Assembly (NCBI GenBank): GCA_009842675.1
Contig: VYEX01000020.1
Coordinates: forward strand, 1-64,000
Origin: Acidimicrobiia bacterium
GTDB lineage: Bacteria > Actinomycetota > Acidimicrobiia > Acidimicrobiales > Bin134
Length of the DNA stretch: 64,000 bases
Reading direction: 5' to 3'
Positions 5,389-64,000 of this stretch are shown here, piece by piece. Each line of letters opens with the position of its first letter. Position 1 is the stretch's first letter. Under the pieces are notes generated by a model, which saw only the letters and a list, made by a program, of their open reading frames with translations, was not told where the DNA came from and made no database searches. The position numbers and the translations under genes are program-made.

Positions 5389-6479
5389 GTAATACTCAGC
5401 ATCCGGTCGAGGGCGACGCGGGCGTCGGCCGCAATGTCCGGCTCGACGGTGATGCGATTGCGGACTTTGCCCTCCGCCAGGCCTTCCAGCGTCCAGGCCA
5501 AGTGGGCGGCGTCGATGCGGAACATGGTCGAGCACGGGCAGATCAGCGGGTCGAGCGACACCACTGTCTTGTCAGGGGTCTCGTCGTTCAGCCGGTTCAC
5601 CAGGTGGATTTCGGTGCCCACGCCGATGACCGAGCCAGTCGGGGCGGCGGCCACCGCTTTGATGATGTAGTCGGTGGAGCCCACCTGGTCGGCCAGAGCG
5701 CATACCTCTCGGCTGCATTCGGGGTGGACCACCACAATCCCATCAGGGTGTTCGGCCCGGAACGCGGCCACATGGTCGGGCTGGAACCGCTGGTGCACCG
5801 AGCAGTGCCCTTTCCACAGCAACAGCACCGACTCCTTGCACTCGGCTTCGGTCAGCCCGCCCAAATCGAATCGGGGGTTCCACACCGCCATGTGGCTCTC
5901 GTCGTAGCCCATGTCGAATCCGGTGTTGCGTCCCAAGTGCTGGTCGGGGAAGAAGAGCACCTGGTCGCCCCGCTCCAGCGCCCACGTCAAAACCGCTCGG
6001 GCGTTGGACGAAGTGCATACTGCACCGCCGTGGCGGGCCACGAATGCCTTCAGGTTGGCGGCAGAGTTCATATAGGTGATTGGCACTACCCGGTCGATGT
6101 CCACCACTCGGGCCAGCTCGTCCCAGGCTTCCTCCACTTGGTCGATGTCGGCCATGTCGGCCATGGAGCAGCCGGCGTTCAGGTCGGGGAGCACCACCTG
6201 CTGGTGGTCGCCAGTCAAGATGTCGGCCGATTCGGCCATGAAGTGCACACCGCAGAACACGATGTACTCGGCCTCGGGACGCTGCTGAGCCAGCACCGAC
6301 AGCCGGAACGAGTCTCCGCGGGCATCGGCCCACTCCATGACCTCGTCGCGTTGGTAGTGGTGCCCGAGAATGAACAGCCGGTCGCCCAGGGCGTTTTTCG
6401 CGTCGCCGATCCAGCCCGCCAATTGCTGGGGCGATGCCGTTGTGTACCGCTCAGGGAGCGGACGCTGAACGCGCAACAT
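5385..6479 (-). CDS. nadA: Quinolinate synthase A
   Basis: LGHHYQRDEVMEWADARGDS, VFCGVHFMAESADIL, ECSREVCALADQVGST, NAxCPCSTM-type motifs; start placed at MLRVQRPLPERY within a longer ORF (to 6614). Confidence 0.9.
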   Translation of the reverse strand: MLRVQRPLPERYTTASPQQLAGWIGDAKNALGDRLFILGHHYQRDEVMEWADARGDSFRLSVLAQQRPEAEYIVFCGVHFMAESADILTGDHQQVVLPDLNAGCSMADMADIDQVEEAWDELARVVDIDRVVPITYMNSAANLKAFVARHGGAVCTSSNARAVLTWALERGDQVLFFPDQHLGRNTGFDMGYDESHMAVWNPRFDLGGLTEAECKESVLLLWKGHCSVHQRFQPDHVAAFRAEHPDGIVVVHPECSREVCALADQVGSTDYIIKAVAAAPTGSVIGVGTEIHLVNRLNDETPDKTVVSLDPLICPCSTMFRIDAAHLAWTLEGLAEGKVRNRITVEPDIAADARVALDRMLSIT

Positions 6480-6701
6480 GTTTTGGGAACCTCCAGGAGG
6501 TACGGGAACTCCAATTAGCAGCCGGTGGGGACAGCCGGGTCGCCTCGCCACGGGGATGTCGGCCTCAGAGTTCGATATGTCGCCGGATACCCGGCCGGCG
6601 TGGATAGAAATCATATCCGCCTAACACTCCCAATGAAAAGGGAAGCGTCGCGCCGTTGCTGGGCAATCCGGGGGCTGCTCGACTCGTAGGATGGGCAGAG
6701 C

Positions 6702-8561
6702 ATGCTGAACCGCCCGCCCTCCGGCACCATCCCTGATGCCGCAGGTTCGTACCAGTTCAAAGACCGCCACGGACGGCTCATTTACGTGGGCAAGGCCAAG
6801 AGCCTGCGGTCCCGGCTGGGCAGCTATTTCCAGAATCCGGCCTACATGCCGCCCCGCACCGCCCAGATGGTGGCCGAGGCCGAATCGGTGGAGTGGATCC
6901 AGGTGGATACCGAGGTGGAGGCGCTGATGCTGGAGTACAGCCTCATCCAGCAGCACCAGCCCCGGTTCAACGTCCGCTACCGGGACGACAAGAGTTACCC
7001 GTTTCTGTGCGTGACCATGGTGGACGAGTGGCCCCGGGCCATGGTCATCCGGGGCCGCAAGAAGAAGGGCAACCGCTATTTCGGGCCCTACGGCCACGCC
7101 TACGCCATCCGGGAGACCCTCGACCAACTGCTGCGCACTTTCCCCATTCGCACATGCAGCGACAACAAGTTCAACCACCACACCCGCTTGGGTCGGCCGT
7201 GTCTGCTGTACCACATTGAGAAGTGCGCCGGGCCGTGCGTGGGCGAGGTGGAGCGGGAGCGCTACGACGAGATGGTGGATGACCTGCTGGCTTTCCTCGG
7301 CGGCGACACCGACGAGGTGGTGAAGCGGCTGGAGGACGATATGGCCCAGGCCTCCGCGGCCCTGGAGTTCGAGCAGGCCGCCCGCAGCCGGGACCGCCTG
7401 GCCAGCGTGCGCAAGGCCATCGAGGGCCAGCAGATGGTGGGGGCCCGCTCGGAGGACTACGACGTGGTCGGCCTGGTGGACGACGAGCTGGAAGCCGCCT
7501 GCCAGGTGTTCTACGTCCGCAAAGGCCGGGTGATGGGCCGCCGGGGATTCATCGTGGACAAGGCGGGCGACCTCACTCGCGACGAGTTGGTGAGCCGGGT
7601 GCTAGAGCGGCTGTATTTCGAGGAGAACCCGCTGGGCAGTCCCAAGCAAGTGCTGGTTCCCGACATGCCCGACAACCAGGGCCTGTACGAAGAGTGGCTG
7701 CGGGAACAGCGGGGATCCAAGGTGGCCATCTCGGTGCCCCAGCGGGGTGCCAAGCGCAAGCTCCAAGAGACGGTGGCCCGCAACGCGGCCGATGCCTTTG
7801 CCCGGCACCGGCTCAAACGCAGCACCGACCACAACAGCCGGGCCCGGGCCCTCAACGACCTCCAGAACTGCCTGGGTCTGCCCGAAGCCCCCCTGCGGAT
7901 CGAGTGCTACGACATGAGCCACCTCCAGGGGTCCGACTATGTGGGCTCGATGGTGGTGATGGAGGACGGCCTACCCCGCAAGTCGGAATACCGCCGGTTC
8001 AAGGTGCGCACGGTGGGCGGCAACGACGACTACGCCGCCATGGAAGAGGTGCTTACTCGGCGGTTGACCAACTACCTAGACGAGCGGGACCGACCGGTGG
8101 AGGAGAAGGGGAAGTTCGCCTATCCGCCCCAATTGCTGGTGGTGGACGGCGGCAAGGGCCAACTGGGCGTGGCCGAGCGGGTATTGGCCGAGTTGGGCCT
8201 CGATGGAGAGATTTTCCCCGCCGGGCTGGCCAAAGAGTTCGAGCAGGTCTACGTGCCGGGCCGGGCCGCTCCGGTGGAGATCCCGAGGCCGTCGGAGAGT
8301 CTGTACCTGCTTCAGCGCATACGAGACGAGAGCCACCGGTTTGCCAACGACTACCACCGCCAGCTCCGGGGCAAGCGGATGACCCGATCCTCGCTGGACG
8401 GCATTGCCGGCCTCGGTCCCACTCGACGAGCTCGTCTGGTGAAGGAGTTGGGCGGAGTGCGGGCAGTGGAACGGGCAACCCTGGACGACCTGCTGGCCCT
8501 CAGCTGGCTCCCCGATGCGGTGGCTCACGCGATCAACGAGAAACTCCACGGGCCCCAATGA
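6702..8561 (+). CDS. uvrC: Excinuclease ABC subunit C
   Basis: 619 aa; GIY-YIG domain (GSYQFKDRHGRLIYVGKAKSLRSRL), C-terminal RNase H-like domain (IECYDMSHLQGSDYVGSMVV, VVDGGKGQLG) and HhH end. Confidence 0.97.
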   Translation: MLNRPPSGTIPDAAGSYQFKDRHGRLIYVGKAKSLRSRLGSYFQNPAYMPPRTAQMVAEAESVEWIQVDTEVEALMLEYSLIQQHQPRFNVRYRDDKSYPFLCVTMVDEWPRAMVIRGRKKKGNRYFGPYGHAYAIRETLDQLLRTFPIRTCSDNKFNHHTRLGRPCLLYHIEKCAGPCVGEVERERYDEMVDDLLAFLGGDTDEVVKRLEDDMAQASAALEFEQAARSRDRLASVRKAIEGQQMVGARSEDYDVVGLVDDELEAACQVFYVRKGRVMGRRGFIVDKAGDLTRDELVSRVLERLYFEENPLGSPKQVLVPDMPDNQGLYEEWLREQRGSKVAISVPQRGAKRKLQETVARNAADAFARHRLKRSTDHNSRARALNDLQNCLGLPEAPLRIECYDMSHLQGSDYVGSMVVMEDGLPRKSEYRRFKVRTVGGNDDYAAMEEVLTRRLTNYLDERDRPVEEKGKFAYPPQLLVVDGGKGQLGVAERVLAELGLDGEIFPAGLAKEFEQVYVPGRAAPVEIPRPSESLYLLQRIRDESHRFANDYHRQLRGKRMTRSSLDGIAGLGPTRRARLVKELGGVRAVERATLDDLLALSWLPDAVAHAINEKLHGPQ

Positions 8562-49217: not shown

Positions 49218-50588
49218 CTAAGCGTTCTTGCCCAGCGTTGTGGCGGGACTGGGGGTCTCGCCTTGGAGCTGACGGCGGCGTTCAAAGAGTTCTTCGGCCG
49301 CGGCCTGGGCATTGGCGGCAACTTCTTGGACATCGACGGAGATCACCTCGCCATCCGCCACCAACTGCTGCCCCTGGACCCAGACATTGGCCACGTCGTG
49401 AGATGATGCCGTGAACACGAGGTGGGCGGCGATGTTGAAGTCGTCGCCGTGCATAACCGGGACGAAGTGCAGCCCGCCCAGGTCAACGGTGACGATGTCG
49501 GCGTCTTTGCCCGCCTCTAGCGAGCCGGTCACATCGTCGAGGCCCAGCGCCCGAGCACCGGAAAGGGTGGCCATGTCCAGGATGTCCCAGGGGTCGCCAG
49601 AGGTGGGGTCGAGGGTGCTCACCTTTTGAAGCAGCGAGGCGAACTTCATCTCCTCGAGCATGTCGAGGTTGTTGTTCTCCTTCTCACCGTCGGTGCCCAG
49701 GGCCACGGTCATGCCCTGCTGGCGGTAGAAGCCGATCCGGGCTGGGCCCGAGGACAGCTTCATGTTGGAGCAGGGGCAGTGGGTGACACTGGTGCCGGTC
49801 TGCACCATCAACTGCACCTCCCGGTCGTCGAGCCACACGCCGTGGGCGACCACACTGTTTTCTCCCAGGATTCCCCGGTTGTAGAACTCCTCGATGGGGC
49901 GGCGACCGAATTGGCGGAGGCACTCCTGCACCTCCCAGATGGACTCCGACGAATGGGTGTGGATCCCAGTGCCGAACTCCTCGGCCAGATCAGCGGCCTG
50001 GCGGAACATGTCCGGCGAGCAGTAGAAGATGTGCTCGAGGCCCACCCAGGTGCGCACTCGTCCATCTGCCGCCGTCAGATGGGTCTCCAACAACCACCGA
50101 TTGGTCTCCAGGGTCTCGAAGTAGTCGTACAAGTCGGCGGTGTAGGGGGCCAGCGTGGCCCGAATGCCGATTGCCTCCGCGGCCCGGGCCGAGCCCTCCA
50201 TGTGCCGCCACATGTCCAGAACCGAAATTGTGCCGCCCCGCAGCCCCTCGGTGTAGGCCATCCACGACGCGGCCTCGGCGATTTCCGGGGTCAGCGCCCG
50301 ATGAGCCGGATCAATGTGGTCCTCCAGCCACTCCCACAGCGCCAGCGACTCCGCGGTTCCCCGCAGTAGGCCGGAATGAAGGTGGCAATTGTGAAAGCCT
50401 GGAACCACCGCGTGCCCAGTTGCGTCAATGGTGTCGATGTTCGCCGCCGCGGGATGCTCACCTACCTCGACCACGCTGCCGACCAGTTCGATTTTACCGT
50501 CGATCACCAACACCGATCCCGGATCAAAGACGACCTTGGATCCCTCCATGGGGAGCACCGTTCCGCCGCGCAACAAGAAACTGGTCAC
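49218..50588 (-). CDS. Amidohydrolase, MTA/SAH-deaminase or chlorohydrolase-like
   Basis: VVPGFHNCHLHSGLLRG (HxH), HTHSSES, VVAHGVWLDDRE, HCPCSNMKLSSG, VALGTDGEKENNNLDMLEEMK. Confidence 0.87.
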   Translation of the reverse strand: MTSFLLRGGTVLPMEGSKVVFDPGSVLVIDGKIELVGSVVEVGEHPAAANIDTIDATGHAVVPGFHNCHLHSGLLRGTAESLALWEWLEDHIDPAHRALTPEIAEAASWMAYTEGLRGGTISVLDMWRHMEGSARAAEAIGIRATLAPYTADLYDYFETLETNRWLLETHLTAADGRVRTWVGLEHIFYCSPDMFRQAADLAEEFGTGIHTHSSESIWEVQECLRQFGRRPIEEFYNRGILGENSVVAHGVWLDDREVQLMVQTGTSVTHCPCSNMKLSSGPARIGFYRQQGMTVALGTDGEKENNNLDMLEEMKFASLLQKVSTLDPTSGDPWDILDMATLSGARALGLDDVTGSLEAGKDADIVTVDLGGLHFVPVMHGDDFNIAAHLVFTASSHDVANVWVQGQQLVADGEVISVDVQEVAANAQAAAEELFERRRQLQGETPSPATTLGKNA

Positions 50589-50712: not shown

Positions 50713-52482
50713 ATGCAGAGTTATCTCGACGAGGAGACCCGGTCCCGAGCGGTCGCGGCCGCGCTCGGCAACGAGTCTTTCGACCTGATTCTGAGCGGCG
50801 GCACTGTTGTGGACGTGGGAACCGGAGAGCTGCGCCAGTCCGACGTGGGGCTGGTCGGCCCGATGGTTGCCAGCGTCCACCCGACGGGATCCCGCACCGA
50901 CACCGCCGACACGTTTGACTGCTCTGATCGGTTCATCGCGCCCGGGTTCATCGACATGCACGTGCACTTCGAGAGCTCCATGCTCACCCCCGGCGGCTAC
51001 GCCGAGGTGGTGTGCCCCCGGGGCACGACCACGGTCTTCATCGATCCTCACGAGCTGGCCAACATTGCTGGGGTAGAGGGAGTTCGCTACGCCGTCGACG
51101 CCAGCCGGGGGCTACCGGTGCGCTTCGTGGTGCAGGCGCCCTCATGCGTTCCGCCGCTGCCGGGGTTGGAACTCTCCGGCCACGACCTCCATGCAGCCGA
51201 TATCGCCGAGATGCTGTCTTGGGACGAAGTGGGCGGCCTGGCCGAGGTTATGGACATGGGCGGGGTCTTGACCCGCGACGCCCGCATGGTCGACATCGTG
51301 GCGGCCGGCCATGACAGCGGCAAGCTGGTCAGCGGCCATGCTGCCGGCTTGACCGGCCCCGCGCTTCAGGCCTATCTCAGCGCGGGCATCTTCTCCGATC
51401 ACGAGGTTTTCGCCCACGTCGATGCCATGGAGAAGCTCCGGGCCGGCATGACGGTTGAATTGCGGGGCGCATTCGACTTCGTTCTGCCCCTCTTGATTGA
51501 AGAGTTGGCCCAACTTCCGGAGTTCCCCACTCACCTCATCGCCGCCACCGACGACCTGTTCGCCCTCACGCTGCTGGAGGAAGGGGGCATCGACGACCTC
51601 CTTCGCCGCTTGATCCGCTACGGCCTGTCCCCGGTGCGGGCTATCCGGATTGCCACCTACAACGCGGCCTACCGACTCCAGCGCACTGATCTGGGCCAGG
51701 TTGCCGCCGGCCGGCGGGCCGACATCGTGGTGCTGTCGTCGTTGGAGGAGGTCACCGTCGACGATGTGTTTTTCGACGGCCGCCGGGTGGCCCATGGGGG
51801 AGCGATGCTTGAGCCCGTTGTCGAGGCGCCCTCAAACCCGCCACTCGACACCATCCAACTGCCGGACATGACCCCCGAGCACTTCGTTTTCCGTCTGCCT
51901 GGGGTTGCCGACGGCAAGCGCCGCATCAGAGTCGTGGAGGGCGTGGTGCTCACCGACTGGGGCGAAACCGAAGTCGAGGTGACCGACGGCATCGTCGCCA
52001 TCCCCGACGGGTATCTGTTGAACGTGGTCGTGCATCGCCACGGGCGGATTGCCGCCAATCCGGTTGCCGGGCTGCTCGGCGGCTGGGGGGACTGGATCGG
52101 CGCGGTGGCCACCACGATCAGCCACGACACCCACAATCTCTCGGTCTTCGGGCGCGACCCCTCCGACATGGCGGTGGCGGCCAATGCGGTGATCGCTACC
52201 GGAGGGGGAGTGGCCGTGGCGCGGGACGGCGAGGTCGCGGCGATCTTGGAACTCCCGGTGGCAGGGATCCTGTCGCCCTTGCCTGCCGCCGAGGTAGCGA
52301 GGATCCAGGGAGAGGTTGGCGCCGCCGCCGAGGCCATCGGGCTGCCGCCCGGACCGCTCACCCAGCCGCTGTTCTCGGTCATGTTGATGAGCTTGGCCTG
52401 CTTGACGGGTCCGCATGTGACCGACATCGGCGTTGTCGACGGCACACTGAGCGAGCTGGTCGACGACCTCATCCTGTCGTGA
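50713..52482 (+). CDS. Adenine deaminase family protein (paralogue 1)
   Basis: GFIDMHVHFESSMLTPGGYAEVVCPRGTTTVFIDPHELANI, GIFSDHE, C-terminal TTISHDTHNLSVFGRD and GGGVAVARDG. Confidence 0.87.
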   Translation: MQSYLDEETRSRAVAAALGNESFDLILSGGTVVDVGTGELRQSDVGLVGPMVASVHPTGSRTDTADTFDCSDRFIAPGFIDMHVHFESSMLTPGGYAEVVCPRGTTTVFIDPHELANIAGVEGVRYAVDASRGLPVRFVVQAPSCVPPLPGLELSGHDLHAADIAEMLSWDEVGGLAEVMDMGGVLTRDARMVDIVAAGHDSGKLVSGHAAGLTGPALQAYLSAGIFSDHEVFAHVDAMEKLRAGMTVELRGAFDFVLPLLIEELAQLPEFPTHLIAATDDLFALTLLEEGGIDDLLRRLIRYGLSPVRAIRIATYNAAYRLQRTDLGQVAAGRRADIVVLSSLEEVTVDDVFFDGRRVAHGGAMLEPVVEAPSNPPLDTIQLPDMTPEHFVFRLPGVADGKRRIRVVEGVVLTDWGETEVEVTDGIVAIPDGYLLNVVVHRHGRIAANPVAGLLGGWGDWIGAVATTISHDTHNLSVFGRDPSDMAVAANAVIATGGGVAVARDGEVAAILELPVAGILSPLPAAEVARIQGEVGAAAEAIGLPPGPLTQPLFSVMLMSLACLTGPHVTDIGVVDGTLSELVDDLILS

Positions 52483-52516
52483 GCCAGATGTTCATTGGCG
52501 CCCGGTCCGTTCCGTC

Positions 52517-54322
52517 ATGATGCAGAAATTCATCGGCGCCGACCTCGTTCCCAATCCGGAGCAGATCCTGCGGCTTCAGGCCGCCGCCCGAGGCGATCAG
52601 CCGGCCGACCTGGCCATTCGGGGCGGCACGGTTCTGGCACTTCACAACCGTGAGATACTCGAGCGCGATGTCTTGATCGTCGGGCAGCACATCGCCGCGG
52701 TGACACCACCGGGGCGGCTGGAGGCCACCGCCGAAATCGATGCGTCGGGCCAGTTCGTGGCCCCGACTTTCATCGATGTCCATCTCCACATCGAATACAC
52801 CATGCTCACCCCGGGAGAATTGGCCCGACTGGTGGTGCCCCGGGGCACGACAACGGTTCTGGCCGACCCCAACTGCCTGGCCAACGTGGTCGGCACCCGG
52901 GGCGCCGATGCCATGGCCTCCACTGCCACGCCGATGCGCATCTTCCAACAGATCTCCCACAAGATTCCCCGGGTGCCCGATCTAGAACTGGGCGGAGCGG
53001 TGATGCCTGAGGAAGACGTGCTCGAGAGGCTTTCGGCGGTCAATGTGGCCACGCTGGGCGAGAGCAATCCCTTCGATCTGGACATCTCGGCGGCCCGCAA
53101 GGCTCATACCGCCATCTCCGCGGGCCGTCGGCTCACCGGCCACACCGCCCGCATCGCCGATGAACCTCTTTGGGCCTACTTGGCCGGAGGGGTCAGCGAC
53201 GATCACAACGCGTTCAATACCGCGGAGGTGATCGACCGGCTCCGCCTCGGGGTCATGATCACCGTCATGTCGGGTTCGATGAACGACAACGTGCCCTTGG
53301 TATTTGAGGACGTCGACGCGGTGGCCGGCGGGTTCGACTACATGAGCTTCTGCGCCGACGACCGCCACGTTGAGGACCTACGCGACGAGGGGCACATCGA
53401 CCATCACGTGCGCGGCGCCATCGCTGAGGGGGTGCCCGCCATCGAGGCCTATCGGATGGCCTCGCTCAACGCCGCCCAGTACTACCGCCTCGATCACCTG
53501 CTGGGATCCATCACCCCCAGCCGCCTGGCCGACGTGATGATCCTCGACGATCTGGATGAGGTGCGGCCTTCGCTGGTCATCGTTGGCGGGGAGGTCGCCG
53601 GTCGAGACGGCGAAGCTACCTTTACCAACCCCGACACCATGCCCGACTGGGTCCGCAACACCGTGCACCTGCCGGGCGACTTCGGGCCCGACCTGTTCCG
53701 GGTGGAAGCCGACGCCGCGCCCGATGAGGTGGCGGTGGTGCGGGCCATGGAGATGTACGACGGATACTTCAAACGGGCCATCGAGGCCGAATTACCGGTG
53801 GTGGACGGCAACGTAGTCCCCGACCCATCCATCGACATCGCCAAGATCACGGTGGTCGACCGCCACCACGGCACCGATACCCGGGCTACAGGCTTCGTGC
53901 GGGGGTTCGGACTCACGCGGGGCGCGCTGGGCATCACCAGCAACTGCGAGAACCAGAACCTGGTGGTGGTTGGAACCAGCGATGCTGACCTTGCTCATGC
54001 CGCCCGCACCCTCCAACAGATCGGCGGCGGCTACGTATGTGTGGCCGACGGCGAGGTTCTGGCCTCCGTCCCCCTACCTCTGGGGGGCATCATGAGCGAT
54101 CAGCCGTGGGAGCAGGTGTACGACGAGTCGATCGCCGCCAACCAAGCCGCAGCCTCGCTCGGTTGCGAGATCGCGTCGCCTTACATGATCTTGGCCTTCG
54201 TGGGATTGGCCGGGGTGCCTGACTACGGCCTGACCGAAAAGGGACTCATCGACACCATGACCCAGTCGTTTATTCCGGTGCTGTTGTGCTGTCGGTGCCC
54301 CCAGCACGTTCACACTGGATGA
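52517..54322 (+). CDS. Adenine deaminase family protein, divergent paralogue 2
   Basis: TFIDVHLHIEYTMLTPGELARLVVPRGTTTVLADPNCLANV, GGVSDDHN, EGHIDHHVR, C-terminal GALGITSNCENQNLVVVG and GGGYVCVADGE. Confidence 0.82.
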   Translation: MMQKFIGADLVPNPEQILRLQAAARGDQPADLAIRGGTVLALHNREILERDVLIVGQHIAAVTPPGRLEATAEIDASGQFVAPTFIDVHLHIEYTMLTPGELARLVVPRGTTTVLADPNCLANVVGTRGADAMASTATPMRIFQQISHKIPRVPDLELGGAVMPEEDVLERLSAVNVATLGESNPFDLDISAARKAHTAISAGRRLTGHTARIADEPLWAYLAGGVSDDHNAFNTAEVIDRLRLGVMITVMSGSMNDNVPLVFEDVDAVAGGFDYMSFCADDRHVEDLRDEGHIDHHVRGAIAEGVPAIEAYRMASLNAAQYYRLDHLLGSITPSRLADVMILDDLDEVRPSLVIVGGEVAGRDGEATFTNPDTMPDWVRNTVHLPGDFGPDLFRVEADAAPDEVAVVRAMEMYDGYFKRAIEAELPVVDGNVVPDPSIDIAKITVVDRHHGTDTRATGFVRGFGLTRGALGITSNCENQNLVVVGTSDADLAHAARTLQQIGGGYVCVADGEVLASVPLPLGGIMSDQPWEQVYDESIAANQAAASLGCEIASPYMILAFVGLAGVPDYGLTEKGLIDTMTQSFIPVLLCCRCPQHVHTG

Positions 54323-54358: not shown

Positions 54359-55597
54359 ATGACATTGGCACGGCTGTTGGGTTCGGCGATTGCGCCTCCG
54401 GTGCTCAACGACGGGGAAGAGAGCGCCCTGGCGAGGCTCGACGGGGTGATTGCCGAGGTGGTGGCGCCGCTCGCCCCCGAGCATGACGATGAGGGCCGGT
54501 ATCCCACCCGGGCCGTCGAGGCCCTCAAGGGCTGCGGAATTCTCGGCCTCGCCGTTCCGTCGGAATTCGGCGGCATCGGCGCCTCGCACACCGCCAGCTT
54601 GCACGCCCAGGTGCGGCTGGCCGTTGCCGACTCATCGGTAGCTCAGGTCTACAAAGTGCACGACGAACTGGTGCGGGAGATATTCAGCTACTGCTCTGAT
54701 GACTTGAAGCCCCGGTTGGCCTCGCTGGTTCTGGAGGGGAACGCCATGTTGGGCCTGGCGGTGGCCGAGGCGGGTCGGACGGTGGCCGATCCGTTCACCA
54801 CGGTGGCCTTGGAGCAAGAAGACGGCAGCCATGTGATCAACGGCCAGAAGATCTACACCACTGGCTCGGCAGAGGCCGATTACGTGGCGGTATGGGGCGT
54901 CAACCCCGAGCGGTTCACCCCGGAGAATCCGTTCTTCGCGCTCCAATTGAACCTGGTGGCCAAGGACACACCGGGGATGACAGTCCATCGTGACTGGGAC
55001 ACCCTGGGCCAGCGGGCCACTGACTCAGGATCCATCAGCTTTGAGAACGTCCATGTGGGCCCGGAGTGGAATGCCAGCATTCCCGGTCGGGCGCCCTTGC
55101 CTCATTCGGGTGTCCGGTTCGAGGCCGGTTTCGCGGCGGTGAACGTGGGCATCGGCATTGGTGCGCTTCAGGCCGCGGTGCCGTTCATCAACGAGCACAG
55201 CCGTCCATGGCCCTCCGCCGAAGTGGACAATGCGGCCGACGATCCCATGGTGCAGCGGACGACAGGAGAGCTGGTCGCCGACCTCGCTGCCGCCCACGAG
55301 CTGACTATGCGCTGCGGAGACCTCATCGATGCCTTCGAGCGGGGCGAAATAAGCCGCACCGATCTGGCCATTCCCATCTATGCCGCCCGCTCAGCGGCCG
55401 ACCGGGCCGGGCTGGCCGCTGCGCAGGGCATCTACGGGCTTATGGGCACACGGTCGGTGCGGCGACCACTGGGATTTGACCAGTGGTGGCGCAACGTCCG
55501 CACGCTGTCTCTGCACGATCCGGTGGAGTGGAAGCACGCTGAGATTGGCAAGCACGTCCTCACCGGTTGGGATCCGCCCCCTGGCATCTACACATGA
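54359..55597 (+). CDS. Acyl-CoA dehydrogenase-fold flavin monooxygenase (DszC/SfnB-like)
   Basis: ACAD fold (LKGCGILGLAVPSEFGGIGASHTASLHAQVRLAVADSSVAQVY, INGQKIYTTGS) with C-terminus WRNVRTLSLHDPVEWKHAEIGKHVLTGWDPPPG as in the DszC/SfnB group. Confidence 0.75.
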   Translation: MTLARLLGSAIAPPVLNDGEESALARLDGVIAEVVAPLAPEHDDEGRYPTRAVEALKGCGILGLAVPSEFGGIGASHTASLHAQVRLAVADSSVAQVYKVHDELVREIFSYCSDDLKPRLASLVLEGNAMLGLAVAEAGRTVADPFTTVALEQEDGSHVINGQKIYTTGSAEADYVAVWGVNPERFTPENPFFALQLNLVAKDTPGMTVHRDWDTLGQRATDSGSISFENVHVGPEWNASIPGRAPLPHSGVRFEAGFAAVNVGIGIGALQAAVPFINEHSRPWPSAEVDNAADDPMVQRTTGELVADLAAAHELTMRCGDLIDAFERGEISRTDLAIPIYAARSAADRAGLAAAQGIYGLMGTRSVRRPLGFDQWWRNVRTLSLHDPVEWKHAEIGKHVLTGWDPPPGIYT

Positions 55598-56595
55598 CCG
55601 CGCTCAGCAAAGAACAGGTCCTCGCCGTCCCCAAAATCGAGCTCCACATCCACCTTGAGGGCACATTCCGCCCGGACCGAGTGGTCGAGCTAGCCGCCAT
55701 GGCTGGTGAAGATCCTCCCCGGCCGGTGGACCGGCTTTTTGAGGTGGACAATCTGGCCGATTTTCTGGAAACCCTCGACTGGGTTTGCGGCCTGGTCCGC
55801 GACCAGCCCACCGCCGAACAGGTGGCCTACGACTTTGCGACCTATGCCCACGACCAGGGCATTGTCTACGCCGAGGTCATCGTGAATCCCACGCATTGGT
55901 CAGGACTGACCACCGCAGATCTCTTCGCCGCGTGTGCTCGCGGGTTCGATCGGGCCCAGGCCGACGGGTTGGGAGACTTCCGCCTGCTCCCGTCGATTCT
56001 TCGCCAGCAGTCCGAGCAGGAAGCCCGACAATTGGTGGGGTGGATCGAAGGCGCCGGGCTGGATCGGATCGTCGGGTTGTCGATCGACGGCAACGAAGAG
56101 GCCGCCGGTCGCACTGGTCCCCGCTTCGCCCCCGCCTATGACGATGCGGCCCGATTCGGTCTGGGACGCACCGCCCACGCGGGGGAGTCGTCAGGAGCCG
56201 AAGGAGTCCGCGACGCCATCGAGCTGTTGGGGGTGAGCCGGATCGATCACGGGGTTCGCTGCATCGAGGATCCTGAGGTGTTGGGCATGGTTTTGGAGCG
56301 GGGGATCACGCTGAACGTCTGCCTGACGTCCAACTGCACCCTGTTGTACTCGAGCCTGGACGACCACCCGATTCGGGAGCTAGCCGCGGCGGGCGTGGGC
56401 TTCACCATCAACACCGATGATCCCGAGACGCTGGGAATCTCGCTGTGCAGCGAGCTCACGCTGGCCGCCGAGCACCTCGGCTGGAAATTGAGTGATCTCG
56501 TTGCTGCCCAACACCGGGCCCTCGACGCCACATTCTGCTCGGAGGCCGACAAGCAGGCGCTCAGAGCTTTGATTGATCAGACCGTGGGGACGTAG
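55594..56595 (+). CDS. add: Adenosine deaminase
   Basis: VPKIELHIHLEGTFRPDRV, AHAGESSGAEGVRDAIELLGVSRIDHGVRCIEDPEV, NVCLTSNCTL, TINTDDPETLGISL; ATGA overlap with upstream gene. Confidence 0.92.
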   Translation: MTALSKEQVLAVPKIELHIHLEGTFRPDRVVELAAMAGEDPPRPVDRLFEVDNLADFLETLDWVCGLVRDQPTAEQVAYDFATYAHDQGIVYAEVIVNPTHWSGLTTADLFAACARGFDRAQADGLGDFRLLPSILRQQSEQEARQLVGWIEGAGLDRIVGLSIDGNEEAAGRTGPRFAPAYDDAARFGLGRTAHAGESSGAEGVRDAIELLGVSRIDHGVRCIEDPEVLGMVLERGITLNVCLTSNCTLLYSSLDDHPIRELAAAGVGFTINTDDPETLGISLCSELTLAAEHLGWKLSDLVAAQHRALDATFCSEADKQALRALIDQTVGT

Positions 56596-57512
56596 TTCTG
56601 ACCCAAACCTCGTGGCATGCGGGCCCACCGGGCGCTGACGGTGAGGATCACCAGCGCCACGAAGAACGGTATGGCGTTGAGGCCTTCAATGGGTACGTCC
56701 ACGAACACGTTGTTGAGGTTGAATCCCAAGGCCTCGAAGAAGCCGAAGACAAACGCGCCCACCGCGGCCCCCCAGATACTCCAACTGGCCATGATGATCA
56801 CGATCAGGGCGATGAACCCCCGGTTCGCAGTGAGGTACGGCTGGAATCGGCCCACGCTGCCCAGCATCAGCGCCGCGCCCCCCAGACCGCCGAGGAATCC
56901 CGAAATCAAAGTGGCCTGGGTGCGTATGCGCAAAACGTCGACGCCCTTTGCCGCGGCGGCGTCGGGGTCCTCTCCAACCGCCTTTGCTTGGAGTCCGAAG
57001 ATCGTCCGGGAAGCGACAAATCCGGCGACGATCACGAGGCCCAGCGACAGCCACGTGTACCAGCTGTGGCCGAATACGGCATCGCCGAGCCACGGGATGT
57101 CTGACAGGAGCGGGATGTCGATCTCCGATGGCAGGGAGACCTGACGGTCTCTTCCCCCGACATCGGTGGTCTCGTGGAAGATGTATCCCGTGGTGCCTAT
57201 GCCGAGGATGGTCAGCCCGAAGCCGACCACAACCTGGTTGGCAAAGAGGCGAATGGAAAGCAAGACCATGAGGCTGGCCAACGCCATCCCGGCCAGCCCG
57301 CCCACCAGGAAACCAAGCGGGGCCGAGGTCGGATCGGCAACATAAAGGGAGCTCAGGGCGCCGATGATCATGTACCCCTCAAGCCCGAGGTTCAAAACGC
57401 CGGCCCGCTGGGCGAACGTCTCGCCGATGGATGCGTAGATCAACGGAGTGGCCAAGCGCATTCCGCCGGCCACGGTGGCGCTCCAGAACGTGGCTTCCAG
57501 CAGTTGGCTCAT
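56577..57512 (-). CDS. ABC transporter permease (BMP/nucleoside uptake type)
   Basis: TPLIYASIGETFAQRAGVLNLGLEGYMIIGALSSLYVA; adjacent to cognate permease, ATPase and BMP lipoprotein. Confidence 0.9.
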   Translation of the reverse strand: MSQLLEATFWSATVAGGMRLATPLIYASIGETFAQRAGVLNLGLEGYMIIGALSSLYVADPTSAPLGFLVGGLAGMALASLMVLLSIRLFANQVVVGFGLTILGIGTTGYIFHETTDVGGRDRQVSLPSEIDIPLLSDIPWLGDAVFGHSWYTWLSLGLVIVAGFVASRTIFGLQAKAVGEDPDAAAAKGVDVLRIRTQATLISGFLGGLGGAALMLGSVGRFQPYLTANRGFIALIVIIMASWSIWGAAVGAFVFGFFEALGFNLNNVFVDVPIEGLNAIPFFVALVILTVSARWARMPRGLGQNYVPTV

Positions 57513-58633
57513 GCCCGTCTCTTCCCGATGAGCGTGAAATTGGCCATGACCCCGCGGGTGAGGCGAATGATTTGGGGGGCATAGCGGATGGAGAATCCGA
57601 GCAGGAGGAGCGCTTGGATGATGTCGGAAAGCGAAGCCGGGATGCCCTCCGATGACTGCATGGCCAAACCTCCAGATTGGAGGGCTCCAAACAACAGCGC
57701 GGCCACCAGCACGCCGCCCGCGGTGGCACCGCCGAGGAAGGCGACGACAAGGCCGAAGAAACCGATATCAGAGGCAATCTGCACGTAGACCCGCTGGAGC
57801 AGCCCCGCGGCCTGCATCCAACCCACGAGGCCGGCAGTAGCCCCGGAGATGAGAAGCGAATTGATAATGACGCGATTGCTGGAGATGCCCAGGCTCTGGG
57901 CCAGGCTGGGGTTCTCGCCGTACAGGTCGTAGCTGAACCCCCGGTCTGAGCGAATCCACCAGACAAAGGCGATTCCAATTGCGAAGGCAGCGAAGACCCC
58001 GAAATGGAATCGGGTGCCGTCGACCACCAGCCCGAGGATGCCGTTCTTCGGATAGGGCTCCGACTGCGGGGTGATGGCAGTGGGGGGTTTGAGGGGGTTG
58101 TTCAGGAGGTATTCGATGAGCAGGGCGGCGAATTCGGTGAACAGCAGGGTGGAGAGGATCTCGTTCACGTTGAAGCGGGCGCGCAGCAGCGCGGGAATCA
58201 ACACCCAGGCCATGCCGAACAGAGCGCCTCCAAGGGCGGCCGCGGGAATGGCGACGGCCGAAGGTGCGTTCTCGAAGAACTGGGCGGTCAAAAGCGCCCC
58301 AATAGCACCAGCCACAACCTGGCCCTGGGCGCCGATGGTGATCAAGCCGGCACGAAGGGCAACCGCGGTTCCGTAGCCGACAATGGCCAGGGGAGCGGCC
58401 CGAGACAGTGTCTCACCAAGGGCAAAACTCGAGCCGAACGCACCGTCGACCATGGCGGAGTAGGCGGTCAGCGGGTTCTCCCCAGACATGAGCAAGATCA
58501 GTCCGCCGATGACCAGGGCGATCAGAACGGCGAGGACACTGGTGGACAACGACGTGGTGAGCCTGCGCTCCTCGTCGGCGGGAGTGGTGGGCCTTACGTC
58601 GTCCAAATCGCCGTCGGCGACAACGTCAGCCAC
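57509..58633 (-). CDS. ABC transporter permease (BMP/nucleoside uptake type)
   Basis: AVALRAGLITIGAQGQVVAGAIGALL, FNVNEILSTLLFTEFAALLIEYLLNNPLK. Confidence 0.9.
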   Translation of the reverse strand: MADVVADGDLDDVRPTTPADEERRLTTSLSTSVLAVLIALVIGGLILLMSGENPLTAYSAMVDGAFGSSFALGETLSRAAPLAIVGYGTAVALRAGLITIGAQGQVVAGAIGALLTAQFFENAPSAVAIPAAALGGALFGMAWVLIPALLRARFNVNEILSTLLFTEFAALLIEYLLNNPLKPPTAITPQSEPYPKNGILGLVVDGTRFHFGVFAAFAIGIAFVWWIRSDRGFSYDLYGENPSLAQSLGISSNRVIINSLLISGATAGLVGWMQAAGLLQRVYVQIASDIGFFGLVVAFLGGATAGGVLVAALLFGALQSGGLAMQSSEGIPASLSDIIQALLLLGFSIRYAPQIIRLTRGVMANFTLIGKRRA

Positions 58634-60176
58634 TGGTCGCTCCCGCGGATTCGGTCAAGCCCGCCATGGCTGCACCCACACGTTCGGAGGTCATGTCCTC
58701 GATGGGGAACGCATCGGTCACCGCTCCCCGGTACAGCACGATGACTCGGTGAGCCAGGTCGGCCACCTCGTCGAGGTCGGCGGAGATTACAACCACAGCA
58801 CCGCCGGCCTGGGCGGCAGCGAAACAGCGATCGCGCATGGCTTTGGCCGCCTCAGGGTCGAGTCCCTTTGTCGGCCCATGGGCCACAAGGACCGTTGGGT
58901 TCTTCTCGAGCTCGCGAGCGGCCATCAACTTCTGCTGGTTCCCGCCCGATAGCGAGCTGGCCTTGGCTGTTGGTTCTGGAGGACGGACCTGGAACCGTTC
59001 GGCCAGTTCCCGGGCGTGGCGGGCGATCTTGTCCGGCAATCTGACGCCGAACCGGGTGAACTTCCGGCTACCCGCGTAACGGGCAGTGGCGTTGTCGGCC
59101 ACTGAGAATGCTGCGGCTAGTCCGGTAGAGCGGTCCTCATGCAGGTGGGCGACCCCAGCGGCAATGGCCTCGCGGGCCGATCCAGAGATGTCCACCTCAT
59201 CCACCAGGACATGGCCGCTCGACAGTTTCACCTGGCCGGTAAGGGCCTTGGCCAGCGACTCTTGGCCGTTGCCGGCGATGCCGACCACTCCGAGAATCTC
59301 CCCACCGGCCACCTCGAAATCGAGACCGTAGCAACCGACCTCTTGTGTTGATGAGATCGAGAGATCGCTCACCCTCAAGCGAGTCGATCCCCGCTCGATC
59401 TCCGGCCGGTTGACCTCCAAGAGAGTGACATCGCCGATCATCAGGGTGGCGACCTCGCGGAGGTCGGCGGCCCGCACATCGGCCCCTTCGACCACCACCC
59501 TCCCGGCCCGGAGAACGGTCAGGCGGTCGGCTAGCTCAGCTAGCTCGGGCAATCGGTGGGAGATATAGAGGATCGGGGTGCCCTCGGCCCGGAGTCGGTG
59601 GCACAGCGCGATCAGGGCCCTGGTCTCCAGTGGCCCCAGCGCCGAGCTGGGCTCGTCGAGGATCAACAGCCGCGCTCCCCAGGCCACGGCGATGAGGATC
59701 TCGGCCTGCTGTCGCACCGCCAGAGGCATGTCGTCCACCAGCGTTTCCGCCGGGACACTGAGGGCGAACTCATCGGACCACCGCTCCACCTCGGCCCGGG
59801 CTGCGGCGGCGTTGAAGACCGCAGGCGCACCTGGTCTTCCCAGTTGCAGGTTCTGTGCGACCGTTAGTCCTCGGACCAGCGAAAGCTGTTGCCGGACGTG
59901 GGCGACGCCGGCCGCGGCTCCCTCTCGGCGGGACAACGGTTCATACGGCTGGCCGAACAGGCTCATCGATCCGGCGTCAGATCGGATCGATCCGGCGACG
60001 ATCTTGGCCAGTGTGGATTTGCCCGCTCCGTTCTCGCCGACGAGCGCGTGGATCTCACCTGATTCCAGCGTGAAATCAACGTTGGCCAGCGCCTGGACGG
60101 ACCCGAACCGCCGAGAGATGCCCCTTACCGAGAGGGGCGTACCGGTGGCCGGGCCCGCGCCTGGTTCTGAGTTCAA
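58626..60176 (-). CDS. ABC transporter ATP-binding protein, tandem nucleotide-binding domains (nucleoside/sugar type)
   Basis: ALVGENGAGKSTLAKIVAGSIRSDAGS, ILDEPSSALGPLE, SLSGGNQQKLMAARELEKNPTVLVAHGPTKGLD. Confidence 0.94.
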   Translation of the reverse strand: MNSEPGAGPATGTPLSVRGISRRFGSVQALANVDFTLESGEIHALVGENGAGKSTLAKIVAGSIRSDAGSMSLFGQPYEPLSRREGAAAGVAHVRQQLSLVRGLTVAQNLQLGRPGAPAVFNAAAARAEVERWSDEFALSVPAETLVDDMPLAVRQQAEILIAVAWGARLLILDEPSSALGPLETRALIALCHRLRAEGTPILYISHRLPELAELADRLTVLRAGRVVVEGADVRAADLREVATLMIGDVTLLEVNRPEIERGSTRLRVSDLSISSTQEVGCYGLDFEVAGGEILGVVGIAGNGQESLAKALTGQVKLSSGHVLVDEVDISGSAREAIAAGVAHLHEDRSTGLAAAFSVADNATARYAGSRKFTRFGVRLPDKIARHARELAERFQVRPPEPTAKASSLSGGNQQKLMAARELEKNPTVLVAHGPTKGLDPEAAKAMRDRCFAAAQAGGAVVVISADLDEVADLAHRVIVLYRGAVTDAFPIEDMTSERVGAAMAGLTESAGATSG

Positions 60177-60183
60177 CGAGGGT

Positions 60184-61254
60184 CTAGCCGGGGAACGGGA
60201 TCGCGAATTCGCCAGCTTCGATAGAGGCGACCAACTCGTCGAGCGCGGCTTGCAGCTCGTCGAGTCCTACCGCGGTGTCGACCGTCGCCGCCATGTTGAC
60301 CGGCAACACCTCTACTTGGGCGTTGAAAATGCCGCCCGGATAGAAGACGTATCCCTCTTCGCCCACTGCGTGCACTTCACCATCAGCCGTGCCGAACGTA
60401 CCGGTGCGGACCTGGTTGAAGAAGTCCAGGTAAAGATCCTTCATCCGGATGACGGTGGCCGCCAGATAGACATCAGGTGCGGTCTGCTCTTGGGAGCCGA
60501 ACCCGACTGAGAGCGGGATCCCCGCGGCTGATGCGGTCTGGGCCGCGCCGATGCAGATTCCATCTCCAGAGCAGTAGATGAAGTCCGCCCCTTGGTCAAT
60601 GAGCTGCTGGGTTACCTCAGCGGCGGCCTGGACGTCGACGAACGAACCGGCAAATCCTTCAAGGAAGTTCAAATCGGGGTTCACCGACAGGGCCGCGTCG
60701 CGGAACGACTGGTGCATGGTCTTGACGAAGTCGAACTCAGGCCCTCCAACGATCCCGATGGTCTCGCCGATAACGGCCTTGGCGGCCAAAATGCCATTGG
60801 GATAGGCCATGTCTTGAACGTTGTATAGCCAGTCGACCACGTTGCCCGCCGTAACGGAACCGGGAACCAAGATGCCCCCGGTCATCGAGAAAGCAACATC
60901 GGGGAACTCGGCATAAAGCTGCTGGATCGGATCCACGTACTCGATGCCGTGTCCCAAAATCAGGTCGAATTCCTGGCTGGCGAAGTCGCGAAGAGCGGGT
61001 AGCGAGTCGGTCGGGTCGATGATTTCCTCTAGGACCTCAGTCTCGACGTTGCCATCTTCGGCCACGGCGTCACGCAGGCCTTCGTAGGCCGCCTGGCTGA
61101 ACGAGTTGTCATTGCGGACGCCAGGCAGGAGCAGCGCCACCTTGAGAGCGCCATCGTCTTCGGAGTCGTCGTCGTTTCCGCAAGCTGCGGCTACCAGCCC
61201 AAACACCATCAAAAGGGCTAGGAATTTGAACAGAATTGAAGAACGCCGTGCCAC
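60184..61254 (-). CDS. BMP family ABC transporter substrate-binding lipoprotein
   Basis: Lipobox LMVFGLVAAACGND; KVALLLPGVRNDNSFSQAAYEGL; GTG start with AAGGAGGGG upstream; NMAATVDTAVG. Confidence 0.92.
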   Translation of the reverse strand: MARRSSILFKFLALLMVFGLVAAACGNDDDSEDDGALKVALLLPGVRNDNSFSQAAYEGLRDAVAEDGNVETEVLEEIIDPTDSLPALRDFASQEFDLILGHGIEYVDPIQQLYAEFPDVAFSMTGGILVPGSVTAGNVVDWLYNVQDMAYPNGILAAKAVIGETIGIVGGPEFDFVKTMHQSFRDAALSVNPDLNFLEGFAGSFVDVQAAAEVTQQLIDQGADFIYCSGDGICIGAAQTASAAGIPLSVGFGSQEQTAPDVYLAATVIRMKDLYLDFFNQVRTGTFGTADGEVHAVGEEGYVFYPGGIFNAQVEVLPVNMAATVDTAVGLDELQAALDELVASIEAGEFAIPFPG

Positions 61255-62842: not shown

Positions 62843-64000
62843 ATGAAGGACCGGTTTGTCGGTCAGCGAGTGACCCGGCGCAACGACGAGTATCTCCTGC
62901 GCGGCACGGGCCGGTACATCGACGACATCGTGGTGCCGGGCATGGTTCATGCCTCCGTTGTCCGCAGTCCAGTGGCCCACGGGCGACTGATCGGGTTCGA
63001 AAGCGCCAGCAATGGCCGGGCCACGATATACAGCCCTGATCGGCTGGCTTCGCTCATCCCCGGTGAGTTGCCCGTCCTTTGGATTCTGGGCGGTCAGCAG
63101 CAGCGGTCCACCCCGGTTGTAGACAAGGTGCTGCGATACGTGGGCCAGCCGATGGCGTTGGTCATCGCCGAATCGAGATACTTGGCCGAAGATGAAGCTG
63201 AGCAGGTAGGCCTCGACATCGAAGAACTAGATCCGGTGCTGGCCATTGATCAGGCTCTTGCCGCTGATGCTCCCTTGCTGTATCCCGCGGCCGGCTCCAA
63301 TGTGTTGGCCTCTTTCGACGCCGGCGATGGCGAGGATCACACCGCTGCGGTGTTTGCCGCTGCCGACCGCACATTGTCCCTGAGGCTGCATATCGGCCGA
63401 GTTCATGGGCTGGCTCTTGAGGGTCGGGGCATTGTCGCGGTGCCCGAGCCTCGGGGGAAGCTCACCGTCTATACATCCACGCAGACCCCGCACTCGGTAC
63501 GAGATTCGCTGTGCGAGTCGCTGGGATTGAACCAGAGCCAGTTGCGGGTGGTCGCCCCCGATGTGGGGGGCGGTTTCGGTCTCAAGGACCACGTGTACGA
63601 AGACGAAGTCATGGTGGCCGCGGCGGCATTGGACCTGGGGCGGCCGGTGAAGTGGGTTGAAGACCGATCGGAGTCTCTATTGGCCACCACCCACGCCCGC
63701 GACGAGATCCACGATGTGGAAGTGGCCTTCGACGAAGACGGAACGCTGCGGGGTCTGCGGCTCGACAGCTTTCGGAACGCCGGAGGACGGTTCGCGGTCT
63801 TCGGGGGTGGACCGCTGTTCACCGTATTCGGGGTCGTGCCCGGGCCGTATCGATGGGACGCCGTGCGCTGCGTCGGCCGGGTTGTGGCCACCAACACCAT
63901 GTCCACCGGCGCCTACCGCGGCTTCGGACAGACCCAGGCGGCATGCATCCGCGAACGGGTGGTTGACCTGGTGGCCGGGGAGTTGGGGCGCGACCCCGTG
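62843..64000 (+). CDS. Xanthine dehydrogenase family molybdopterin-binding subunit (N-terminal part, runs off window)
   Basis: MKDRFVGQRVTRRNDEYLLRGTGRYIDDIVVPGMVHASVVRSPVAHGRLIGF...; TQTPHSVRDSL; APDVGGGFGLKDHVYEDEVMVAAAALDLGRPVKWVEDRSESL; GAYRGFGQTQA; open to base 64000. Confidence 0.88.
   Translation, partial: MKDRFVGQRVTRRNDEYLLRGTGRYIDDIVVPGMVHASVVRSPVAHGRLIGFESASNGRATIYSPDRLASLIPGELPVLWILGGQQQRSTPVVDKVLRYVGQPMALVIAESRYLAEDEAEQVGLDIEELDPVLAIDQALAADAPLLYPAAGSNVLASFDAGDGEDHTAAVFAAADRTLSLRLHIGRVHGLALEGRGIVAVPEPRGKLTVYTSTQTPHSVRDSLCESLGLNQSQLRVVAPDVGGGFGLKDHVYEDEVMVAAAALDLGRPVKWVEDRSESLLATTHARDEIHDVEVAFDEDGTLRGLRLDSFRNAGGRFAVFGGGPLFTVFGVVPGPYRWDAVRCVGRVVATNTMSTGAYRGFGQTQAACIRERVVDLVAGELGRDPV

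Follow-up and report, generated by a model that had tools for sequence, protein, structure and literature searches.

Two adjacent genes of the adenine deaminase family lie on the plus strand of the 64,000-nucleotide stretch of acidimicrobial DNA analysed here (the window), and a reading of the sequence alone had proposed that each protein has lost conserved motifs that the other keeps. The locus thus raises the question of whether the two proteins depend on one another, perhaps as a heteromer with shared residues, or are separate enzymes with different substrates. The pair itself is as that reading described it, and every motif quoted for the two paralogues is present as written. Both open reading frames are complete and are separated by 34 bases, and both products match PF01979 and PF13382 above the Pfam cut-offs, the combination by which the AdeC/ADE family is recognised. 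They are the only two matches to PF13382 in the whole 3.39-Mb assembly.

50713..52482, plus strand: ADE1, Atu4426-type adenine deaminase of 589 amino acids (48% identity to 3NQB with a phmmer score of 552 bits; groups with Atu4426 at support 100/100)
52517..54322, plus strand: ADE2, AdeC-family enzyme of a separate clade, 601 amino acids (own clade, support 100/100; AlphaFold pLDDT 91.5; best PDB match 3nqb, TM 0.88)

The two proteins are about 32% identical, and both score below the 472.5-bit cut-off of the ade equivalog TIGR01178 (ADE1 368.4, ADE2 367.0). A maximum-likelihood tree of 75 proteins of the AdeC family places ADE1 with Atu4426 in a clade of nine rows and ADE2 outside it in a clade of 19 rows; the two clades are not sisters. 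This low identity and the separate, well-supported positions show that two lineages have been brought together, and a recent tandem duplication is rejected. ADE2 would have entered the genus of the window independently, from a distinct clade of the family.

ADE1 and the EGHID motif

The sequence-only reading took EGHID to be the usual form of one family motif and regarded its ADE1 counterpart as a departure from it.

51577..51594, plus strand: EEGGID of ADE1, the supposed EGHID variant (the same columns read GGGLD in Atu4426)

Alignment shows that these columns read EGHID in the Escherichia coli enzyme and GGGLD in the crystallised Atu4426 (PDB 3NQB, 3T81, 3T8L), the sequence of the latter being taken from a printed alignment that spans residues 18-592. 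The histidine is present in 60 of the 75 family representatives and missing from the other 15 (14 substitutions and one gap), so EGHID is not a dependable family signature. The proposal had been made to hinge on whether its motifs are conserved in verified adenine deaminases, and for the ADE1 motif the answer is no, Atu4426 being an active enzyme encoded by a single gene. Because Atu4426 has GGGLD at this position and ADE1 is 48% identical to it, in the same clade and with common motifs including GG for GH, ADE1 has lost nothing. It also retains the adenine-contacting arginine, the DPHE motif, and the C-terminal motif of the HDSHN type (as HDTHN), which it has in common with the E. coli enzyme; EGHID is what the E. 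coli enzyme has in common with ADE2. ADE1 is accordingly predicted to be a standard Atu4426-type adenine deaminase, which would convert adenine and water to hypoxanthine and ammonia.

The metal site and substrate pocket of ADE2

The six ligands of the binuclear metal centre (the HxH pair, the bridging Glu, two later His residues, and an Asp) are complete in ADE1 and ADE2 alike, and the ligands together with the catalytic Asp are conserved across the ADE2 clade. With a full set in each protein, and ADE1 intact by comparison with Atu4426, the notion of reciprocal losses falls away. ADE2 shares with Atu4426 the two-domain fold and the metal ligands at 31-32% identity, and 3nqb is the closest PDB structure to its AlphaFold2 model (pTM 0.92), the TM score thus referring to a predicted structure. 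The E. coli adenine deaminase (b3665, adeD/yicP) has the same fold and binuclear ligands, is 30-33% identical to either protein, and belongs to another clade.

ADE2 differs at ten positions, each fixed (at least 85% on each side) to one residue in ADE2-like proteins and to a different one in the 47 rows of ADE1-type and canonical proteins. The changes include the following.

52871..52876, plus strand: N119-C120 of ADE2, in place of the His-Glu of DPHE (N and C in 17/19 clade members; H-E in 47/47 ADE1-type and canonical rows)
53207..53209, plus strand: N231 (DHN) of ADE2, in place of the Glu of DHE (N in 19/19; E in 47/47)
53267..53269, plus strand: M251 of ADE2, where Atu4426 has the adenine-contacting Arg260 and YerA has Arg252 (M in 19/19; R in 47/47; role of the Arg from PMC12133300)
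53942..53959, plus strand: NCENQN of ADE2, in place of SHDSHN (first His column: Cys in 19/19, His in 47/47)

Compared with Atu4426, ADE2 is without Arg260, the DHE glutamate, the His-Glu pair of DPHE, and the HDSHN motif. The changes are more numerous than the earlier reading had recorded, since DPHE has become DPNC in ADE2 (mostly DPNC or DANC in the clade), HIES has become HIEY through a Ser-to-Tyr substitution, and the arginine, which contacts the adenine ring in Atu4426 and YerA according to PMC12133300, is replaced by methionine; the arginine column was numbered by an offset fixed with His94 and Asp289/290. HDSHN has become NCxNxN throughout the clade, and E93, two residues past the second His, is invariant in it. 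The DPHE and HDSHN motifs co-vary perfectly over the 75 rows (51 with both, 24 with neither), yet the tree places only two changes behind this pattern, and it is therefore no statistical proof of coupling.

We consider it probable that ADE1 is a standard adenine deaminase and that ADE2 is a binuclear deaminase acting independently on some other amino-heterocycle, the two being separate enzymes of one operon. The intact metal centre and general-base Asp suggest that ADE2 would use the same water-activation chemistry, in a pocket that appears to have been rebuilt, with Met for the adenine-contacting Arg and a fixed set of Asn and Cys residues at the His-rich C-terminal motif and at DPHE and DHE. 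The enzyme would then hydrolytically deaminate an amino-heterocycle other than plain adenine, a reading that draws on the pocket changes beside an intact metal site and on neighbouring genes, described below, that suggest uptake and oxidation of a purine-like compound. The idea of divergent substrate specificity is thus sustained for ADE2, where the changes are clade-wide, and dropped for ADE1.

It is unlikely that ADE2 is instead an adenine deaminase of the ordinary kind that binds adenine in another way, the pair then being redundant or differently regulated. The fold of the predicted model, the complete metal ligands, and the purine-type gene neighbours would all suit such an enzyme, and ADE2 could fill that role in the six of 24 ADE2-carrying assemblies outside the window where it is the sole AdeC-family gene (threshold E 1e-20); but the exclusive Met in one group and Arg in the other, the replacement of Glu by Asn, and the rewriting of both DPHE and HDSHN argue otherwise. 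The ADE2 score under the ade equivalog cut-off points the same way, but ADE1 falls short of it likewise.

A deaminase of modified adenine (an N6-alkyl adenine or nucleoside) would have its counterparts in Bacillus subtilis YerA and B. halodurans Bh0637, N6-methyladenine / N6-methyladenosine deaminases of the AdeC-family fold, which like ADE2 have no C-terminal HDSHN. By sequence, the C-terminal domain of YerA (9JQL) ranks second among the PDB matches of ADE2, and our comparison uses that domain together with published residues; the 9JQL alignment shows HDSHN to be missing from both, a statement about the motif and not about the third-metal ligands themselves. According to PMC12133300, Atu4426 has a third metal and YerA is active without the ligands for it, including on N6-methyladenosine; losing the third-site motif thus by itself neither implies inactivity nor excludes adenine-type substrates. 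The same paper shows, however, that YerA retains Arg252, where ADE2 has Met, and has F91 (after H87 and H89), where ADE2 has its invariant E93. Given that YerA and Bh0637 both keep the base-contacting Arg and Phe91, a function of this kind is improbable for ADE2.

Proteins of the ADE2 clade would be filed as adenine deaminases by family despite scores under the equivalog cut-off, and if the Arg-to-Met clade does act on something else, that annotation would be wrong in at least three bacterial classes. The fixed signature of HIEY, DPNC/DANC, DDHN, Met, and NCxNxN provides a marker for the clade.

Two further lineages of the family show substitutions of other kinds. L106 and L119 keep DPHE and HDSHN with the bridging Glu changed to Gly, one metal His to Gln, and the Arg to Thr, and are a candidate non-catalytic lineage of AdeC relatives. 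The clade of L086:1726, L087:3001, L029:11799, and L105 has replaced DPHE and HDSHN (SGLDQ/TAFDQ and APDDNN/SPDDEN) and kept DHE and the Arg; two of its members have Cys at one metal His.

Distribution and independence of the two genes

The ADE2 clade has been recovered from Acidimicrobiia, Frankia, Microbacteriaceae, Rhizobiales, and Gammaproteobacteria at 53-95% identity to the window copy, and thus ranges over Actinomycetota, Alphaproteobacteria, and Gammaproteobacteria. It is scarce in Rhizobiaceae (3/151 genomes), which is consistent with horizontal spread; most relatives come from metagenome assemblies, and single absences are correspondingly soft. Among 298 genomes of the order, ADE1 occurs in eight and ADE2 in eight, and both occur together in three, all of the genus of the window. 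Orthologues of ADE1 with 63-67% identity are found without ADE2 in other families.

A natural deletion separates the genes within the genus. In L025, at 5944-7791, the body of ADE1 is missing, and what is left of it, the first codons (MQSHLGEETSSRF), is joined in frame to ADE2 as a single open reading frame of 615 amino acids; a search of that assembly for a further ADE1 found none elsewhere. Compared pairwise, the ADE2 genes of the window and L025 give a dN/dS of 0.067, a value inside the 0.048-0.072 found for same-genus pairs that keep ADE1; the deletion is seen in a single metagenome assembly.

These observations bear directly on the proposed heteromer, in which ADE1 and ADE2 would each make good the residues missing from the other. 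Several genomes within the genus, and L028 too, retain the tandem order, as such a partnership would lead one to expect, but nothing is lost in ADE1 relative to Atu4426, the metal site is complete in each protein separately, each gene is common alone, their co-occurrence is not obligate, and ADE2 remains intact where ADE1 is deleted. On the co-occurrence, clade, and deletion data we reject reciprocal loss and the heteromer, to which we would give scarcely any credence, and a shared-site complex need not be sought. Nor is ADE2 at all likely to be a non-catalytic pseudoenzyme, as its several altered family-invariant residues might suggest, since the metal ligands and the catalytic Asp are all retained in its clade, its dN/dS between close relatives is 0.05-0.07, and it has been kept across three classes.

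The ADE2 neighbourhood

If ADE2 is a separate deaminase of another amino-heterocycle, as we favour, the genes around it bear on what its substrate might be.

49218..50588, minus strand: COG0402-type aminohydrolase (5'-deoxyadenosine / SAH / MTA deaminase-like), divergent from ADE1
54359..55597, plus strand: FMO, SfnB/DszC/MsuC-like group D flavin monooxygenase, adjoining ADE2 in most loci
55567..56595, plus strand: adenosine-deaminase-family protein (ADA) of the HLEGTF type (TIGR01430 231.7 bits, cut-off 216.55; HLEG kept at nearly all linked loci)
56577..57512, minus strand: ABC importer permease B (NF047928-like, below its cut-off)
57509..58633, minus strand: ABC importer permease A (NF047929-like, below its cut-off)
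58626..60176, minus strand: ABC importer double ATPase (NF047930-like, below its cut-off)
60184..61254, minus strand: BMP/PnrA-type substrate-binding lipoprotein (PF02608, 116 bits)

Downstream of ADE2 the operon continues with FMO and then ADA, whose HLEGTF compares with HLDG as the usual adenosine deaminase motif, and the importer genes are convergent to the ADE1-ADE2-FMO-ADA operon. The linkage of ADE2 to FMO, ADA, and the transporter recurs across phyla. The usual alphaproteobacterial arrangement runs from ADA and a gene for a small secreted protein through the binding protein, the ATPase, ADE2, and FMO to two permeases. The secreted-type protein (L037:2845-3459, also in L033, L034, L036, L038, L039, and L040) lies between the ADA and binding-protein genes, has about 200 amino acids and an apparent signal peptide, and is 41-79% identical between loci; the L037 copy has no Pfam match.

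Among solved and named proteins the linked FMO is closest to the group D flavin monooxygenases DszC, MsuC, and SfnB, with DszC and methanesulfinate monooxygenase as the nearest solved structures, although the FMO scores below the curated cut-offs (SfnB 255 against 430.9; DszC 194 against 850). In the genus of the window ADE2 and FMO occur in the same nine of 22 genomes (FMO with ADE2 in 9/9). In the wider set FMO (at least 48% identity) accompanies ADE2 in 17 of 24 genomes and is missing from seven, four of them around the Acidimicrobiia group and three actinomycete. A plasmid of Rhizobium sp. ACO-34A (pRACO34Ad, L152:10946-17166) carries the importer and FMO, 54-78% identical to those of L037, with neither ADE2 nor ADA; there is no ADE2 between ATPase and FMO, and the cassette adjoins flavin monooxygenases of the NtaA/DmoA and SfnB types. 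With FMO absent from 7/24 genomes and a cassette that lacks ADE2, the pathway need not be obligate.

The neighbours suggest that a purine-like compound, perhaps one containing sulfur, is taken up and oxidised. The linked ABC importer of the BMP type would bring in the ADE2 substrate, on which the ADA-like deaminase and the DszC/MsuC-like flavin monooxygenase would also act, the order of these steps being an inference. It is possible, and we suggest it tentatively, that the ADE2 clade represents an unrecognised specificity of the AdeC family. Together with FMO, the ADA-like deaminase, and the BMP-type importer, it would then make up a catabolic cassette, spread by horizontal transfer, whose target is a modified amino-heterocycle, perhaps a purine that is sulfur- or N-substituted. 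A literature search for a cassette of this kind found nothing specific. Conservation of the cassette makes the substrate findable in carriers available in culture, for example Rhizobium sp. L51/94 or Mangrovimicrobium sediminis.

Two further genes lie close by. A molybdopterin hydroxylase large subunit of the xanthine dehydrogenase / aldehyde oxidase family (62843-64000, plus strand) is near the purine-type cluster and is cut by the end of the window. A cytochrome P450 gene (47978-49189, plus strand) adjoins the cluster; L023, L025, and L027 keep it at the same position, and L024 and L026 do not.
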